64,000 nt of DNA from positions 62,001 to 126,000 of the forward strand of contig CAIMVG010000009.1 of assembly GCA_903844845.1 (NCBI GenBank), given 5' to 3'. The stretch comes from an uncultured Dehalococcoidia bacterium (GTDB taxonomy: Bacteria; Chloroflexota; Dehalococcoidia; Dehalococcoidales; UBA1222). The position numbers and the translations under genes were made by a program. Shown piece by piece: positions 10,165 to 17,931 of this stretch. Position 1 is the stretch's first letter, and every line of letters starts with the position of its first letter. The notes beneath the pieces are model-generated. The model was not told the origin of the DNA. It saw nothing but the letters and a program-made list of their open reading frames with translations, and did not search any database.

Positions 10165-13100
10165 CTATCCCGAAAGCGGAGCGAAAGCCCCTGCGTAAGT
10201 AGTCCAGTCGCTCTGGCTCATGAGGTCTTCAAAGTTGCCCCCGGTGCCTTTGACACTGCTGGCGAGTTTGATGGGTGAACCGATCCCCGGCACGCCGGAG
10301 GTTGACTGGTTATCGCTGCCGCCAGCCAGGCGCCGTTCCACAGACAATTCGACGCTGGTGCTGAAGAAAAGCACTTCGACTTTAACCGTCAGTTTGGCCT
10401 GCCCCCACAGCTCGTTGGCGGTGATCTTGTATTCCATTCCCAGGTAGAATTCGATAGAAACTGTGATAATGCCGAGTACTTCCAGCGAGCCCCCTATGCG
10501 GATATAAGAGGTGAGCGAGGCAGACTCGTCCGGCTGCCCGATCTTTTCCATCTCGTAGTAGATACCGCCCATCACATGTACCTGGCCCGTGGCCACACCG
10601 AGGTTCAGCGCCATGCTGGCTCCGAATTCGAGGGCGGCTTCCAGCCGTTCTACGCCGTCCAGACCGATTTCGATGGCAAAGAACCCTCCGCCTCCGAAAG
10701 CATAAATCGTCAGCAGGAAAGGCTGTTCCCGTTCGCAGAAGTTAAAGCGCAGGCGTGCCGGATTCCCGGTGAAGGGGATGATCAACTTGGCACCCAGGGA
10801 TATGTTCTGGATAGTCACCACACCGAAGGCCACCGTCGGGATAGGCAGCGTAAAACCGGCGCTTACCTGTGTTGGGGTGATGTCGATGTTCAACCCGCTG
10901 CCGGAAGACTTCATAAAATCTTTCAGTGCATTGACGAACGTCAGTACTCCGGCAAACTCGACCTTGTCGATATCGACGTCAACATTGGGCTTCTTCCCTG
11001 TTTCCGAAGTAAAAATCACTTTGTTGAAGTGAAGCCGCAGGAACAGAAAATCCTCGCCGAGTATATTGATCCAGAAACTGCGCAGATCTCCCACGATGTT
11101 GTAGGTGGGCTCGCCGGGAGGATCCACAGGAGTGATAAAAGTACCCTTGACCTCCATGCTTGTCGAGCCCGAAGTTTCAAATATCTTCATGGGGTCTGCT
11201 TTTAGATCCGGCAACCAGTCGAGACGCGTCTCAAGAGACTGAGGGGGCAGGCTGTTATTGCCGTTGGGGTAGATAACATAATTGGTGAGCTGCGGGGTCT
11301 TGCGCCCTTCGCCGAAATTGGCAGGTTTGATGATATCCGCCAGTGAGATGCCTCCCAGTATTTTCGCGCCGTTAAAGAAACTCGCGGGGTTAAACTGGGT
11401 GGGCGTGGAGTCAACCGTGCCGCCTACAACCCCTATGGTGCGCGACAGCCCGCCGATCTTAATATTGGGAGTAACGGTTCCTCCAGATTTATCACCTGCC
11501 CCGTCGAAGCTCAGGTCCACCTGGTTTTTCAGTTTAGCCCATATGTATCCCGGGTTGGTTGATTTATCGAAACCATGGGTGCGGAAATCAGGATGTAACT
11601 GGATGATAACCGGACCGGGGAATGCCCCGCCGGTAGCCTGTTCGGCACTCGGCAATCGAACCACAGCTTCCTGCCAGGTGGGAAAGAACCGCGCCTGGTC
11701 ATCAGGCAAGGCAGCATCGGGAGGCGCGGGCAGAGCCGCTCCAAGGATGATGCTCTTGACTTCGGCGCTGGTGTCGCCTGCTTTCCCGTCTGCCACGCCC
11801 TCTGACTTTGAACTAGGGGCAAAAGCGACTTTCTGGCCTTGCAACAGCCGTTCCCGGCGCGACTGGTTTTCAGCGGCGGATTTGTAAGCAGTAATGGCCG
11901 GATCGATAAACTCGGCAACGTCATCCGCTTTTTGCAATGTGGATGAAATGAAGGCCAACGGGCAGGTAAATTCGGTGCGTTGACCATCAATATCTTCCGC
12001 TGACATGTGAAACAGGAAGTCCTGTCCGCCCACGCGCGGCCAGAAAGCTTTCTGCCCTTTGTTTACCAGGTCATTGACCGGGTCGGCAGGATTATCCAGT
12101 ATGGGCGTGATGAGACTGGTGATGCGGGCATTTACGAACGGCCACTCACGCCCCCCATAGGGCTGGGAGGTATGAGCCGGATAAGTCTTAAGGGGTTGGC
12201 GTACTACTATGTAGAAACGCTGGCGCAGATAGGCTGCGGTTTGCCCTGACAAGGGACCGCCGGAGGGGACCGCCTGGAACTTCCGTTCGGTGATCTTGAC
12301 CAGAGTAGCGGCATGACCGGTTGGGAATAGAAAACCTTTATAAACCACGCGCACGTAGTGGTCCCTGCCCATGGTGGCCAGGTGCCGCCACTCCAGGATG
12401 TCCATGTCCGCCGAGGCCGGCGCGTTGGGCCACTCTCCCCGGGTATTCATCCAGGCTCCCAGGGTGCTGAGCATGAAGCGTTCCACCTGGACAGGCGATG
12501 GTTTGTAATACAGAGGCACTTCTGCCGGTATCTGGATATTGTAATCCGACATCAGGCGCACCAGTTGCCAGCGATCGTTTTTGGTGAGGGACATACGGAA
12601 TGGCAATGAATCGTTGGCATCCGGGGACTTGCCGCGTTCGAACCCCTGCGCCCAAACTGCACGCAGAGTCCGGTAAAATTCCTGTTGCTCGTCCACCAGG
12701 TATTGTCCCGCGTGGTTTGGATCAGTGATACGCACCCCCAGGCGGGTATGCCATAGTTCTGTGCGATTGTTTTTGGTGACAGGATCGATGGCGTGAGCCC
12801 AGCCAGCCTTGATACTGGGCGACATAACAAGTTGCCATGGCACCTCGATGGCGGTCTCGGTCTTAAGTGGTTCGACAGGGACCTGCCCCAGTGTCGGATC
12901 TTTGGTAGCTGTTGCAGCTTTGGATAGCGCCTGCGAAGGGGGTTGGGCGGTAACGGTGACGCTCATCTGATTCTTCTGCCATGAGAGCAGTTCTTCCATG
13001 GTGAAAGGGATGGGACCGGTGTACTGAATCATGAAGGCCAGACGGCTCGGACCTGCAAAGCGCACCCCAACCGATCCGGGTTGATCCGGCGTCTCGCCGC

Positions 13101-13701
13101 CGCCGGGCGGGTTGGGAGAATTATTGGGATCCTCTGTATCACTGCCGATCTCTGCGGCTGTTTCCAGATAGGCTTCTTCGCCGATGTTCTGGGGTGAATA
13201 ATCGTTCCCGTGACCGAGTGTGATGACCACACCGACGGCTTGATTTGAGTTCTGACGCAGGAGAGTGCCTCCCTGCAAAACAAGGTTATAGAAATCAAAT
13301 TTGAGGGCCAGCATGTCCGCTTTCCGGAAGACTGAAGCGGTAAAGCTGGGATCTCCTTCGAGGTCTGTGATCTTTGGAGGATTGCAGGCTACTATATTCT
13401 TGAAATTCCCGGAATTGCAGGATGATTGCGCAAGCATGGCGTCCAGGAGCAGCGCCGAGGCGCCAAACACGGATAGTTTGATGAATTTACGCCGCGTCAA
13501 AGGGGGAATGTCGGCCCGGTCAAAGAAGCCCAAAAGTTGCAGACTGACCTCCGGTTCTTTTTCAGGGGGGATTCCGTTTTGGGCAACAAATTCTTTGATG
13601 ATTTTTACCAGTTTCTGCCGTTCTATATATTTGCCATCGTGCGATTTGGGGCTTTTTTTTGCGATATTGTCCTCGTGCCCATTAGTACCATTATTATCCA
13701 T
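10165..13701 (-). CDS. Giant protein with internal Tat-like signal (1178 aa)
   Basis: Large protein of unknown function. After a hydrophilic leader of about 75 residues comes LTRRKFIKLSVFGASALLLD, a twin-arginine motif with hydrophobic core, followed by AQSSC. This suggests Tat export or anchoring, though the leader is unusually long. The middle (about residues 200-800) is Pro/Gly-rich with many short beta-like strands. The C-terminal 300 residues alternate hydrophobic and polar residues (for example AIEIGLDGVERLEAALEFGA) like a large beta-sandwich or barrel. The ATG at 13701 follows AGGAGGT; a strong promoter lies at 13868-13896. First gene of a two-gene unit with the 1342-aa protein. Confidence 0.8.
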   Translation of the reverse strand: MDNNGTNGHEDNIAKKSPKSHDGKYIERQKLVKIIKEFVAQNGIPPEKEPEVSLQLLGFFDRADIPPLTRRKFIKLSVFGASALLLDAMLAQSSCNSGNFKNIVACNPPKITDLEGDPSFTASVFRKADMLALKFDFYNLVLQGGTLLRQNSNQAVGVVITLGHGNDYSPQNIGEEAYLETAAEIGSDTEDPNNSPNPPGGGETPDQPGSVGVRFAGPSRLAFMIQYTGPIPFTMEELLSWQKNQMSVTVTAQPPSQALSKAATATKDPTLGQVPVEPLKTETAIEVPWQLVMSPSIKAGWAHAIDPVTKNNRTELWHTRLGVRITDPNHAGQYLVDEQQEFYRTLRAVWAQGFERGKSPDANDSLPFRMSLTKNDRWQLVRLMSDYNIQIPAEVPLYYKPSPVQVERFMLSTLGAWMNTRGEWPNAPASADMDILEWRHLATMGRDHYVRVVYKGFLFPTGHAATLVKITERKFQAVPSGGPLSGQTAAYLRQRFYIVVRQPLKTYPAHTSQPYGGREWPFVNARITSLITPILDNPADPVNDLVNKGQKAFWPRVGGQDFLFHMSAEDIDGQRTEFTCPLAFISSTLQKADDVAEFIDPAITAYKSAAENQSRRERLLQGQKVAFAPSSKSEGVADGKAGDTSAEVKSIILGAALPAPPDAALPDDQARFFPTWQEAVVRLPSAEQATGGAFPGPVIIQLHPDFRTHGFDKSTNPGYIWAKLKNQVDLSFDGAGDKSGGTVTPNIKIGGLSRTIGVVGGTVDSTPTQFNPASFFNGAKILGGISLADIIKPANFGEGRKTPQLTNYVIYPNGNNSLPPQSLETRLDWLPDLKADPMKIFETSGSTSMEVKGTFITPVDPPGEPTYNIVGDLRSFWINILGEDFLFLRLHFNKVIFTSETGKKPNVDVDIDKVEFAGVLTFVNALKDFMKSSGSGLNIDITPTQVSAGFTLPIPTVAFGVVTIQNISLGAKLIIPFTGNPARLRFNFCEREQPFLLTIYAFGGGGFFAIEIGLDGVERLEAALEFGASMALNLGVATGQVHVMGGIYYEMEKIGQPDESASLTSYIRIGGSLEVLGIITVSIEFYLGMEYKITANELWGQAKLTVKVEVLFFSTSVELSVERRLAGGSDNQSTSGVPGIGSPIKLASSVKGTGGNFEDLMSQSDWTTYAGAFAPLSG

Positions 13702-14188: not shown

Positions 14189-14881
14189 TCAGGCAGCAGG
14201 CTGAAGGTCAGCGATACGCACCACGGTACCATGGTCTTTGATATAGCGAGATACCGGACCCCCCAGGGCTTCGATGCGCTCGTCGGGGAAGACCAGCAGA
14301 CCCGTACCTGTAGCTATGCCGTATCCGATGGATTTCTCTTTCTTTAGAGCCAATGCCGCCTGGAGTTCATCCCAGCCTGATTTTTCATCATGGGTATCGC
14401 AAAGGACATCGGCCAGCCCCATGCAAGGAAAAAGTTCGGCAGTGTCCACATCCTCCGGGTCACGCCAGCGCACCCATTCGCGCCCAAGCATGATGCTCCC
14501 TGCCGATATCCCGAAAAATGGTTTACCCTGCCGGTAGAGTTCTTGCAGGAAAACATCCATCTTGCGCCTGGCAAGGGTCTGCATGCCAAGTTCGACATCC
14601 CCGCCGCTGATGAATACTACATCAGCCTTCTCTAAAATCTCTTTTGATTGATTTATCCGCGCACCCTTTGCCATGCGGGCCAGTTTAACCGATCCCGCTC
14701 CCATATCGCGAAGGTAGCCTTCTATATGGCGGAAGAACTCCAGATCATCATCTGAGGCAGCCCCGACATAAGCCACAGCGGGCTCCTTGCAGTTATTGCT
14801 CTGAAAAAATAGTTTCACGGCGGGGTCGCGCTGGCCGCGTCCGCCGGCAAGGAGAAATAACGGGGCTCGTTTTGTTTTCAT
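14189..14881 (-). CDS. Peptidase S51 family protein (peptidase E/cyanophycinase-like), copy 1
   Basis: A 230-aa cytoplasmic serine hydrolase of the S51 class, which in known members cleaves Asp-X or isoaspartyl-type bonds. The nucleophile elbow GISAGS places Ser126, and His164 lies in CDTHDEKSGW, the usual catalytic His position. Other family marks are the N-terminal LAGGRG, AYVGAAS, and VFISGGD before the elbow. No signal peptide. It is the last gene of an operon with marR, a PaaK-like ligase and a second S51 protein (14946-15671), from which it is clearly diverged. The substrate is unknown; no cyanophycin synthetase is seen nearby. Confidence 0.82.
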   Translation of the reverse strand: MKTKRAPLFLLAGGRGQRDPAVKLFFQSNNCKEPAVAYVGAASDDDLEFFRHIEGYLRDMGAGSVKLARMAKGARINQSKEILEKADVVFISGGDVELGMQTLARRKMDVFLQELYRQGKPFFGISAGSIMLGREWVRWRDPEDVDTAELFPCMGLADVLCDTHDEKSGWDELQAALALKKEKSIGYGIATGTGLLVFPDERIEALGGPVSRYIKDHGTVVRIADLQPAA

Positions 14882-14945
14882 AATATCACCTCAAATAAAT
14901 TTTGCGCCAAAAAACGCGCGGGCTGGTTGCCAACCATTCAATAAA

Positions 14946-15671
14946 CTAACTTTTCTTCACAAAATGATCATCCGGCGACATGTCCGCTTTCTGCTCTATC
15001 GTACCTCCATGATTGGTGAAGCACGCCACCGATCCGTTTTTTGCCTGAATGCGGCCATCCGGGAATACCATCAAATAAGCCCCCGAGTTGATTCCGTAGC
15101 CGATCGCTCCGTCCCCTCTGAGTTCCAAGGCCGTTTTAAGTTCGAACCAATCATCTTTTTCAGCGTGGGTATCGCAAACAAACGGAACCAGCGCCAGGCA
15201 ATCATAAAGCCCGGGGGATGCATCACCGCCGGGTTCAGGCCAGGAGACCCATGCCTGCGCCATCATGATGCTCCCGGCTGAAACACCGATGAACAGCTTG
15301 TCTTGTTGTGCCATCTCCCTGAAGAATTCTACCATGTTCTTTTGTCGCAAAACATCCATCCCCACCTCCATATCCCCGCCGCTAAAGAACACAACGTCGG
15401 CCCCCTGGATTAGGGTACGCGCTTTGTTAAGGTCTGCGTCAGGTGCTGCTATGACTACCCGGTGAACACGGCATTTGCAGCCGATCTTGATAAGAGCGGC
15501 TATAACGAAAAACGGTATCCAGTTATCCCGAAAGCTGGCTGCGCCGATAAAGGCGAGGTCAGGGTTAGCTTTCCCGCTTTCTTTAAGGATGCGCTGAATA
15601 GCGGCAATGGTTGAATGCATGCTGTGGCCTCTGCCGCCGGCGAACAAATAGAACGGTTTCCTAGTCTCCAT
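14946..15671 (-). CDS. Peptidase S51 family protein, copy 2
   Basis: A 241-aa paralogue of the downstream gene with the same order of motifs: FAGGRGHS at the N-terminus, AFIGAASF-type strand, VVFFSGGD, the elbow GVSAGS with Ser131, and CDTHAEKDDW with His169. It begins 3 bp after the ligase gene stop, so translation is probably coupled. Both copies keep the catalytic Ser and His, so this is not an obvious active/inactive pair; they may differ in substrate or form a heterodimer. The pairing with an adenylating enzyme suggests hydrolysis of an amide made in the same pathway (inference). Confidence 0.82.
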   Translation of the reverse strand: METRKPFYLFAGGRGHSMHSTIAAIQRILKESGKANPDLAFIGAASFRDNWIPFFVIAALIKIGCKCRVHRVVIAAPDADLNKARTLIQGADVVFFSGGDMEVGMDVLRQKNMVEFFREMAQQDKLFIGVSAGSIMMAQAWVSWPEPGGDASPGLYDCLALVPFVCDTHAEKDDWFELKTALELRGDGAIGYGINSGAYLMVFPDGRIQAKNGSVACFTNHGGTIEQKADMSPDDHFVKKS

Positions 15672-15674
15672 TTG

Positions 15675-17060
15675 CTAATTACACCCTCCTTTAACATTTT
15701 GCCTGTCGAGGCAGGCATCCAGATCGATGGGGAACAAGCATTTAGATACAAGGTATTTCCCGGTGCTTTCCGGGGCGATGTCGGCATCATAAATCACTTC
15801 GATGCCGGCCTCCCGGCCGTAAAGCGACTTTAGAAGGGAAACAGCTGTGTGCTTGTGTTTCTCACGGTCCGCTACATGGCTGACCAGATGGAGTTCGTAG
15901 GAACGCTGGTTCAGTTGTACCAACTGGTAGATGCTAACTTCGGGAAGGTTACTCAGGCAGGTATCCAATTCCAGTAAAGTCACTAATCTGCCTTCGCATG
16001 TCAGGGTCAGGTTTGCCCTTCGGCCTGCTATCGCTTCCAGCACCAGCCCGGATTCCCTTCCACAGGGGCAGCGGCCCCCTGTCTCTAATTTAACGATATC
16101 ACCTGTTTCAAAATGGATCAGATAACTCCAGGGGTTGTGAAGCGGGGTAACCAGGATGCGCCCCAATGCAGGGCCTCCATGCATCGCTTTGAGCGGTTCA
16201 AAATCTACCCTGCAGAAATCGCTGTTCTGGTGAAATCGCCCCGCTTCGCACTGCAAGAAAACATACCCGGTTTCAGTAGTGCCGTATGAGCTGGTAAAAG
16301 GAACTTCGGGAAAGACCTTTCGGATCTGAGCAATAGCCATGCGCGTCGGATATTCATACGTGAAGACTATCGCACCCGGCTGAAAGACTGTTTTATCGCC
16401 TGCCGAGGCGTACCGGCAGAGCCTTGCCAGATAGGACGGGTTGGCTTCCAGAAGGGCTGGTTGAAAGGTCCCTATCTCCTGGATCATGCGGTCCATGTGT
16501 TCCGCGGGCCACGCGGTCGGGTCTGTCTTTTCATTGAGGTAGAGAAAGCGGGCCAACCGCCGGTCCTCCATCGGCAAGGGGACCTCGTCGGAGACAATAC
16601 CGACGTTGCGCGGGTTAACTAAAATAGCTTCCCTGTGATTCCCGGGTGCGATGCGGGCCAGGTGGGTATTCAATTTCCATGAGGACTTTTCCGAGGCATC
16701 CCACCAGGGCTGGTTCCAGATGTTGGTTATTTTATCGCCGGTAGTCCCGCTGGTCTGAATGAACTGTACTTCCCCGTTTTCAAGCGCTGCCGACAGTTCT
16801 ACCTCGGGAGGAAGAACTCCACCGGGGAAATTAGTGTTGATATCCAGCTTGGTGAGCGCCGGCATGCGCGCATAACGGTCATCGACTGAAGCCTGAGGCC
16901 CGGGGTCGCACGCTTTCCAGGATCGATACATCGGTATTTTTTCCAGCGCCGTTTCCAATAGCGCTTTAGAACTGGAATAGTAATCCGGGGGGTATTGTAA
17001 ATTCGATGGCGGCGTTTGATCAGGCAAGATAAGTTTTCCCTCCACTTTAGTCAGGTACAC
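15675..17060 (-). CDS. PaaK-like adenylate-forming CoA ligase
   Basis: A 461-aa member of the phenylacetate-CoA ligase (PaaK) branch of the ANL superfamily, which activates a carboxylate as acyl-AMP and usually forms a thioester. The P-loop-like QTSGTTGDK lies near residues 100-108; SSYGTTETGYV is the adenine-binding motif; HFETGDIVKLE carries the ribose-binding Asp; CPCGRESG is typical of PaaK proteins. The C-terminal lid domain is present. Substrate unknown. It sits between marR and two S51 hydrolases in one operon, so aromatic acid degradation is less likely than a small biosynthetic or modification pathway. Confidence 0.8.
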   Translation of the reverse strand: MYLTKVEGKLILPDQTPPSNLQYPPDYYSSSKALLETALEKIPMYRSWKACDPGPQASVDDRYARMPALTKLDINTNFPGGVLPPEVELSAALENGEVQFIQTSGTTGDKITNIWNQPWWDASEKSSWKLNTHLARIAPGNHREAILVNPRNVGIVSDEVPLPMEDRRLARFLYLNEKTDPTAWPAEHMDRMIQEIGTFQPALLEANPSYLARLCRYASAGDKTVFQPGAIVFTYEYPTRMAIAQIRKVFPEVPFTSSYGTTETGYVFLQCEAGRFHQNSDFCRVDFEPLKAMHGGPALGRILVTPLHNPWSYLIHFETGDIVKLETGGRCPCGRESGLVLEAIAGRRANLTLTCEGRLVTLLELDTCLSNLPEVSIYQLVQLNQRSYELHLVSHVADREKHKHTAVSLLKSLYGREAGIEVIYDADIAPESTGKYLVSKCLFPIDLDACLDRQNVKGGCN

Positions 17061-17089
17061 GAACTATAAGAGTAAAAAAATTACTGATT

Positions 17090-17548
17090 TTAGGTAACAA
17101 ATTTTTCGAGGTAAAAGTCGATCTTTTGTAAAACCCGAACGACAATATCCGAGTCTGTCTCATAGAATTCCCGTAAACTCGATTTAAGGTCTTTAAACAT
17201 GCGAGAGTGTTCGGCATTGATGTCCCTGCACAAAGGTTGGCATTTTTCAGTGATGTTGAGAGCCACCTCTTTTGTGTTGGCGGCATCTTTGGTCTTTATT
17301 ATCAAACCTGTTTCAACCAGTTTGTTAACCATCTCGGACGCTGATGCTTTAGAGACATTCAGGCTGCCGGCAAGATTTGTGATATTGATACCAGGCCTGT
17401 GCCCGATGATTACAATGGCCCTGATTTGGGAAGGGAATACCTTTATATCTCTGTAGACCCGGGGGTGCTTGTCGATCAGATTGAGCTTTGCGTTGATGCT
17501 CATCAGGGTGTCCAGTATCTGAAATGCGGAAAGTGAAGCGTTTGACAT
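17090..17548 (-). CDS. MarR-family transcriptional regulator
   Basis: A 152-aa winged-helix regulator. The recognition region reads INITNLAGSLNVSKASASEM followed by VNKLVETGLI and a wing ending in a VALNIT strand; terminal helices would form the dimer interface. The start is taken at ATG 17548 (MSNASLSAF), because the palindrome at 17552-17578 lies immediately upstream; a start 13 codons earlier would place that palindrome inside the gene. It is the first gene of the ligase/S51 operon and probably represses it, being released by a small aromatic or acidic ligand as in other MarR proteins. Confidence 0.85.
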   Translation of the reverse strand: MSNASLSAFQILDTLMSINAKLNLIDKHPRVYRDIKVFPSQIRAIVIIGHRPGINITNLAGSLNVSKASASEMVNKLVETGLIIKTKDAANTKEVALNITEKCQPLCRDINAEHSRMFKDLKSSLREFYETDSDIVVRVLQKIDFYLEKFVT

Positions 17549-17551
17549 GGT

Positions 17552-17578
17552 ATTATTGTAAGGCAACCTAACAATAAT
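17552..17578. promoter_or_regulatory. Palindromic operator at marR
   Basis: ATTATTGTAAGG - CAA - CCTAACAATAAT: 12-nt half-sites with one mismatch around a 3-nt centre, ending 3 nt before the marR start codon. The position fits autorepression of the operon by blocking initiation. The core (TTAGGTTGCC-like) also resembles DtxR-type boxes, but the adjacent gene is MarR type. Confidence 0.75.
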
Positions 17579-17807
17579 GTCAAACATCTACCTTTTGGTT
17601 CGCAGTTTTTAAGGGAATCAACGCATGGAGGTCGCCCAACTCCGCGAAAAAATGACTTCCAGGTAATATCTTGAGGAACGGGTAGAGGAATAGGCGTGTT
17701 GAAAGCCCTGTTTCTCTACTTTTGGTTGGCTCAGCTTCGTGGTAAAGTTCACATGCCTAGAGGTTATTGGAAACTGCGCTGACCGGATAACAGCCACGCC
17801 ACCAGAT

Positions 17808-17925
17808 TCTAGATCCCGGGTCTCAGCCCGGGAGGACAATGACGGGGCAGGAGTCAAGGATGGGGACGAGATTGCCGCGTCGCTCACGCTTTTCGCTATG
17901 AAAGCCGAATGACAAGACGGGGTTG
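17808..17925. repeat. REP-like intergenic repeat remnant
   Basis: Contains CCCGGG-TCTCAG-CCCGGG followed by GGACAATGACGGG, then GAGATTGCCGCGTCGCT and GAATGACAAGACGGGG. These phrases match the widespread class of intergenic elements built on paired CCCGGG arms and GAGATTGC...AATGAC ends. The copy here is degenerate. It fills the gap between marR and the end of acsE and may act as a transcript end. Confidence 0.5.
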
Positions 17926-17931
17926 GCGGTG

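Follow-up and report, generated by a model that had tools for sequence, protein, structure and literature searches.

Gene content of the locus

The stretch analysed here (the window) is 64,000 nucleotides of contig CAIMVG010000009.1 from an uncultured Dehalococcoidia bacterium. It carries a row of four genes on the minus strand that encode, in the order of transcription, a MarR-family regulator, a PaaK-like adenylate-forming ligase and two S51-fold proteins, copy b and copy a (Table 1). All four open reading frames (ORFs) are open, intact and co-directional, and the regulator and both S51 proteins score well above the cut-offs of their Pfam profiles. This agrees with the initial annotation, which described one operon with a PaaK-like ligase and two intact S51 hydrolases. 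Copy b is separated from the ligase gene by a gap of 3 nt and is the copy that is co-inherited with it. The marR gene has its ATG at 17548. A longer frame begins at 17587, upstream of the promoter, and this is not likely to be the true start.

Table 1. Features of the cassette (window coordinates)
Feature	Coordinates	Strand	Basis
sigma-70-type promoter, TTGACA-17 nt-TACAAT	17555..17583	-	11/12 consensus matches
near-perfect palindrome, putative MarR autorepressor operator	17552..17578	.	12-nt arms, 11/12 paired, 3-nt spacer
marR, MarR-family regulator, 152 aa	17090..17548	-	PF01047, 42.4 bits (cut-off 24.6)
PaaK-like (ANL superfamily) adenylate-forming ligase, GTG start	15675..17060	-	NCBIfam and PDB similarity, motifs
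S51-fold putative serine amidohydrolase, copy b	14946..15671	-	PF03575, 56.7 bits (cut-off 23.9)
S51-fold putative serine amidohydrolase, copy a	14189..14881	-	PF03575, 63.8 bits (cut-off 23.9)

The ligase and one S51 gene form a conserved pair

Profiles of the ligase and of the S51 protein were built from six sequences each and used with thresholds of 1e-40 and 1e-30, respectively. Among 393 genomes of the class, the ligase was found in six and the S51 protein in the same six, and the two genes were adjacent every time. If the genes were independent, the chance of the same six coinciding would be about 2e-13, a figure that the relatedness of the genomes keeps from being a true probability. 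A phylum-level sample of 400 genomes gave three matches, identical for the two profiles, and all three belong to this class and are among the six. Further ligase searches were positive in 2 of 84 genomes in the order of G155 (G numbers denote genomes, L numbers loci), in 8 of 14 in the family of G053 and in 1 of 15 in the order of G076. A first search at an expectation value (E) of 0.001 had matched 28 of 61 genomes, of which the four close ones, G000, G053, G020 and G023, were kept; the other 24 were dropped as distant PaaK homologs, with their neighbourhoods left unread.

All searches combined, together with two contigs of metagenome-assembled genomes, gave 16 genomes with a ligase of this type. 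At 16 of 16 loci an S51 gene lies directly downstream on the same strand (in G020 it runs off the contig), and the gap is −29 to 34 nt in 14 of them. The gene order proposed for the operon was thus kept in part: the linkage of ligase and S51 held and was not scattered, the second S51 gene was seen at one locus only, that of the window, and the window-type MarR was likewise rarely retained. The conserved unit is the ligase plus one S51 protein. In five computable pairs (nine were tried) the ratio of nonsynonymous to synonymous substitution rates (dN/dS) was about 0.07-0.4, showing that the genes of the pair are under purifying selection.

Copy b clades with the S51 proteins of G053, G813, G155 and G787, matching the ligase clade, and copy a falls outside in another S51 subclade. 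A recent duplication as the origin of the tandem was therefore rejected, the copies belonging to different subclades and being 38% identical. In the G155 ligase frame (L045:1240-1300) an apparent ATA stands where G787 has ATG, which is an unusual start or an assembly error.

The ligase was sought in nine relatives from the family of the window genome and found in none (0/9). Since the pair is patchy, absent from these relatives and flanked by different genes in different lineages, it was likely acquired laterally. A search of the open-licence PMC literature found no paper on a ligase-S51 pair. The pair matters as a well-defined unit open to testing: in the genomes sampled the two genes were not seen apart, and for both families the usual substrates are either excluded or in doubt here. 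A further function of S51 would follow from it, by way of a subgroup whose catalytic triad is altered, and it would offer a way into what these uncultured anaerobes synthesise or degrade.

The marR promoter and its palindrome

The −10 element of the promoter ends 6 nt short of the marR ATG, from which we infer that the marR mRNA is probably leaderless. Promoter-like sites numbered four where 3.1 were expected, so the consensus match is weak by itself. The palindrome overlies the promoter spacer and the −10 element and ends 3 nt from the ATG, as the initial annotation had noted. In the 152 nt upstream, a palindrome of equal quality arose in 4 of 2000 first-order shuffles; across the whole window 27 inverted repeats of equal quality were counted. 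The exact sequence has one match in the window and none in 100 shuffles. When the genome was scanned, this site alone had fewer than 3 mismatches and the remaining 13 sites had 3, giving 14 in total, fewer than the 22 for the reversed control.

The marR ortholog of G053, whose product is 55% identical to the window MarR, has the promoter TTGACA-17-TACTAT with unchanged half-sites and again 6 nt between the −10 element and the start. Over the promoter and operator block about 26 of 32 columns are identical between the two, compared with about 42 of 100 upstream (counted by hand in the pairwise alignment). The core pattern TTGTTAGNNNNCCTTAC was confined to these two marR promoters among 105 loci; the six loci listed by this search are overlapping copies of the two sites. 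The regulator matches the winged-helix profile and has a palindrome at its own promoter, to which it would putatively bind. Because the promoter-palindrome block is kept in G053 and the core pattern is confined to the two sites, MarR is likely to repress its own gene through the palindrome.

The S51 proteins keep the serine and the histidine

Both S51 proteins of the window keep the catalytic serine (SAGS) and histidine (CDTH), as had been claimed for them. Across the family the serine is present in 17 of 17 sequences, and the histidine and the H-x-E motif in 16 of 16 sequences reaching there. The serine, the histidine, the aspartate two residues before it and the glutamate two residues after it are invariant, though identity drops to 38%. 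The structure model of copy a has a predicted local distance difference test score (pLDDT) of 87 (65-71 in the other four models) and is nearest to cyanophycinase and PepE (3en0, 7uqv, 7c9b and 6a4r; query-normalised TM-score about 0.7-0.75).

The nucleophile motif reads SAG[SA], with serine in place of the cysteine of class I glutamine amidotransferases. In class I amidotransferases, about 90 residues separate the nucleophile from the histidine. The H-x-E motif was rejected as a homolog of their HPE motif on account of a Ser-to-His spacing of 38, which is PepE-like. The residue numbers in PMC9239234 give 37 for PepE.

The canonical third acid, glutamate or aspartate, was not found in the 16 sequences reaching its place; the aligned place reads GI[APNV][ST], with GL in a few. 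Behind the histidine, DQHFDQRGRFGR of 7uqv aligns with the family consensus DTHDEKDGWEEL. Here the arginine-bearing segment of cyanophycinase and PepE, which has a role in Asp binding, has given way to an acidic stretch that contains an invariant tryptophan (E...W.EL). Since the third acid and the arginine segment are both replaced, an Asp-specific peptidase appears unlikely. The scores also stay far below the NCBIfam cut-offs, with 45.4 and 33.0 of 126.6 bits for cyanophycinase and 24.7 and 26.3 of 156 bits for PepE, and the label of an Asp-type amidase given in the initial annotation could not be upheld. Speculatively, the invariant glutamate of H-x-E may supply the third catalytic residue instead.

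The missing third acid would also suit a non-catalytic S51 protein that, as the partner of the ligase, binds a ligand or has a stabilising role. We regard this as improbable, since the invariance of Ser, His, D-x-H and H-x-E would be unusual for a dead enzyme and the dN/dS values are low.

A role in storage, raised in the initial annotation, was discarded together with cyanophycin metabolism. That annotation had itself seen no cyanophycin synthetase, and none scored over the cut-off in the nine genomes with the module that were searched (0/9). Only partial matches appeared, which we take for generic ATP-grasp and Mur-ligase domains.

The ligase lies outside the standard PaaK type

The window ligase gave no Pfam match at E 0.01. 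Its NCBIfam matches were all below cut-off (FlxY, 1.1e-10; DVU_1553 family, 1e-8; BagE/FevW, 1.3e-7), and the PaaK equivalog model was absent from them at E 0.01. A standard phenylacetate pathway was rejected on this ground, and the profile results support the view of the initial annotation that the enzyme is not a standard PaaK. The structure prediction, with a pLDDT of 44.6, was unusable.

All ANL motifs looked for were present, namely TSG[TS], YGxTETG, GD and SGK; the first, third and last of them are the P-loop, hinge and C-terminal lysine motifs. TSG, YG[TS]TETG and SGK are conserved across the aligned orthologs and paralogs, and in the alignment TSG, TETG and GK are kept wherever the sequence is complete. 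Variants are TGK for SGK in the window and RD for GD in G020 and G818.

With the single sequence as query, the best PDB match was AjiA1 (6wuq, 1.6e-14), followed by PaaK (4r1l, 3.2e-8). PMC11497795 describes AjiA1 as catalysing the ATP-dependent dimerisation of 3-hydroxyanthranilate, and relatives of the window ligase can therefore join acids to amines or hydroxyls. This similarity would suit a pair that synthesises, in which the ligase would make an acyl amide or ester, the S51 protein would cleave or mature the product for self-protection, and a MATE protein would export it, as a minimal two-gene cassette for a specialised metabolite or a conjugation. The BagE/FevW match fits such a cassette, as do the loci L031 and L032, where another MarR and two MATE exporters lie upstream of the pair; the L031 MarR matches BagL/FevM at 3.3e-7. 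Moreover, the S51 protein MccG detoxifies a self-made peptidyl-nucleotide antibiotic, as described in PMC9239234. However, every one of these matches lies far below its family cut-off, PaaK chains outscore AjiA1 when the alignment is the query, no genes for making an acid or an amine travel with the pair, and MATE genes occur at 2 of 16 loci only. We consider synthesis with self-protection rather unlikely, and their presence at only these two loci also excludes the MATE exporters as a core component.

Ligase paralogs with other partners

G811 and G812 each encode a further ligase, with 37-39% identity to the window enzyme, and directly after it come genes for a SufS-type cysteine desulfurase and MnmA (L081:280-4093 in G811, L079:8227-11760 in G812). 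The SufS-type matches score 400.2 and 404.5 bits where 475.1 are required; a score for MnmA was taken in G812 alone. From reading, IscS- and IscU-like genes precede in L079. The paralog and SufS are possibly a thioacid-forming pair. The best-scoring plasmid matches of the window ligase (about 25-26% identity) include nonribosomal peptide synthetase (NRPS) clusters of Klebsiella (plasmid pC696_1, L097:7872-11207) and Vibrio coralliilyticus (pOCN014, L098:7983-11316), where the ligase adjoins a class-V pyridoxal phosphate (PLP) enzyme and CysE. Both clusters have the order dioxygenase, PaaK-like ligase, class-V PLP enzyme, CysE and phosphopantetheinyl transferase, and their ligases are 67% identical. 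Of matches with similar scores, that in Nonomuraea is without annotation and that in Deinococcus lies among polysaccharide genes.

Such partners look as if they donate sulphur or nitrogen. By analogy the S51 protein may be a nucleophile-supplying subunit, with ammonia or an amine attacking the acyl-adenylate of the ligase to give an amide, by a logic like that of GMP synthetase. The glutaminase-like fold of S51 and the loss of the cyanophycinase-type specificity positions are consistent with this. Against it stand the serine nucleophile, unlike the cysteine of class I amidotransferases, and the SufS pairing, which may just reflect a neighbourhood of sulphur genes; we also know of no S51 glutaminase. 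The probability of a nucleophile-supplying S51 subunit is low. A wider version, in which an interchangeable partner would set the chemistry of this ligase lineage (nitrogen and amides with S51, sulphur and thioacids with SufS-type proteins in G811 and G812 and perhaps in the plasmid NRPS clusters), is in our estimate improbable. If true, it would yield the first amidotransferase to combine an ANL ligase with a serine S51 subunit.

A possible cassette for acyl-amide handling

Our preferred reading, which we hold tentatively and as possible rather than probable, is a MarR-controlled cassette that handles acyl amides of small molecules for salvage or detoxification. MarR would sit on the palindrome over its own promoter until a ligand, probably acidic or aromatic, releases it and marR, the ligase and both S51 genes are switched on. 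The S51 serine hydrolase would then cleave an amide bond, and the ligase would adenylate the freed carboxylic acid and hand it to coenzyme A (CoA) or another acceptor. The MATE genes and the different MarR of L031 and L032, together with an MFS-like transporter that from reading precedes the pair in G811, fit a response to small molecules.

Several findings weigh against this reading. With the canonical third acid missing, the hydrolase activity is putative. AjiA1, the best single-sequence structural relative of the ligase, joins two aromatic acids and does not form a CoA thioester. The window-type MarR was found at just 2 of 16 loci, as was the MATE pair, and no other catabolic genes were found to travel with the pair at the module loci. 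Among the matches listed for the module genomes, HGD-D/benzoyl-CoA-reductase-type genes occurred in 8 of 9 and were missing from G053; this survey, which covered module-bearing genomes alone, does not decide for or against the reading.

Other observations around the loci

To the right of the window cassette, the ORFs read as genes resembling those of the Wood-Ljungdahl pathway. A 1178-aa ORF at 10165-13701 has a twin-arginine-like N-terminal segment (RRKFIK) and matched neither Pfam nor NCBIfam at E 0.01. At 17750-17930 a GC-rich intergenic stretch resembling an inverted repeat (CCCGGGTCTCAGCCCGGG) looks like a dispersed repeat. Beside the module of G076 (L046:3796-7646) a KamA-like radical SAM protein, two ATP-grasp-like ligases and a GNAT-like protein are encoded in a row, as judged by reading.

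Comparison with known systems

The ligase BagE/FevW and the MarR protein BagL/FevM of bagremycin and ferroverdin gave weak matches from the window ligase and the L031 MarR, respectively. The window ligase differs in reaching 30.9 of the 800 bits needed, and no aromatic-acid biosynthesis genes lie beside the pair. Cyanophycinase and peptidase E (MEROPS S51) have the fold and the catalytic Ser and His in common with the S51 proteins described here, as well as, for cyanophycinase, the D-x-H motif. They differ in sequence, with 14-20% identity, and in the third acid and the arginine segment, which are replaced here. For PepE the triad is Ser120-His157-Glu192, and for the resistance peptidase MccG, of S51 clade V, it is Ser133-His168-Asp196 (PMC9239234). 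MccG resembles our proteins as an S51 protein in a small-molecule context. It differs in its third residue, an Asp that is absent from the canonical place here, and in its partners, since in the passages of PMC9239234 consulted it stands alone or with McC-like cluster genes and no ligase partner is described. AjiA1 and PaaK, the closest solved structures, have the adenylation core in common with the window ligase, whereas the latter shows low similarity to both (E 1e-14 to 1e-8), falls outside the PaaK equivalog and is always found beside an S51 gene.

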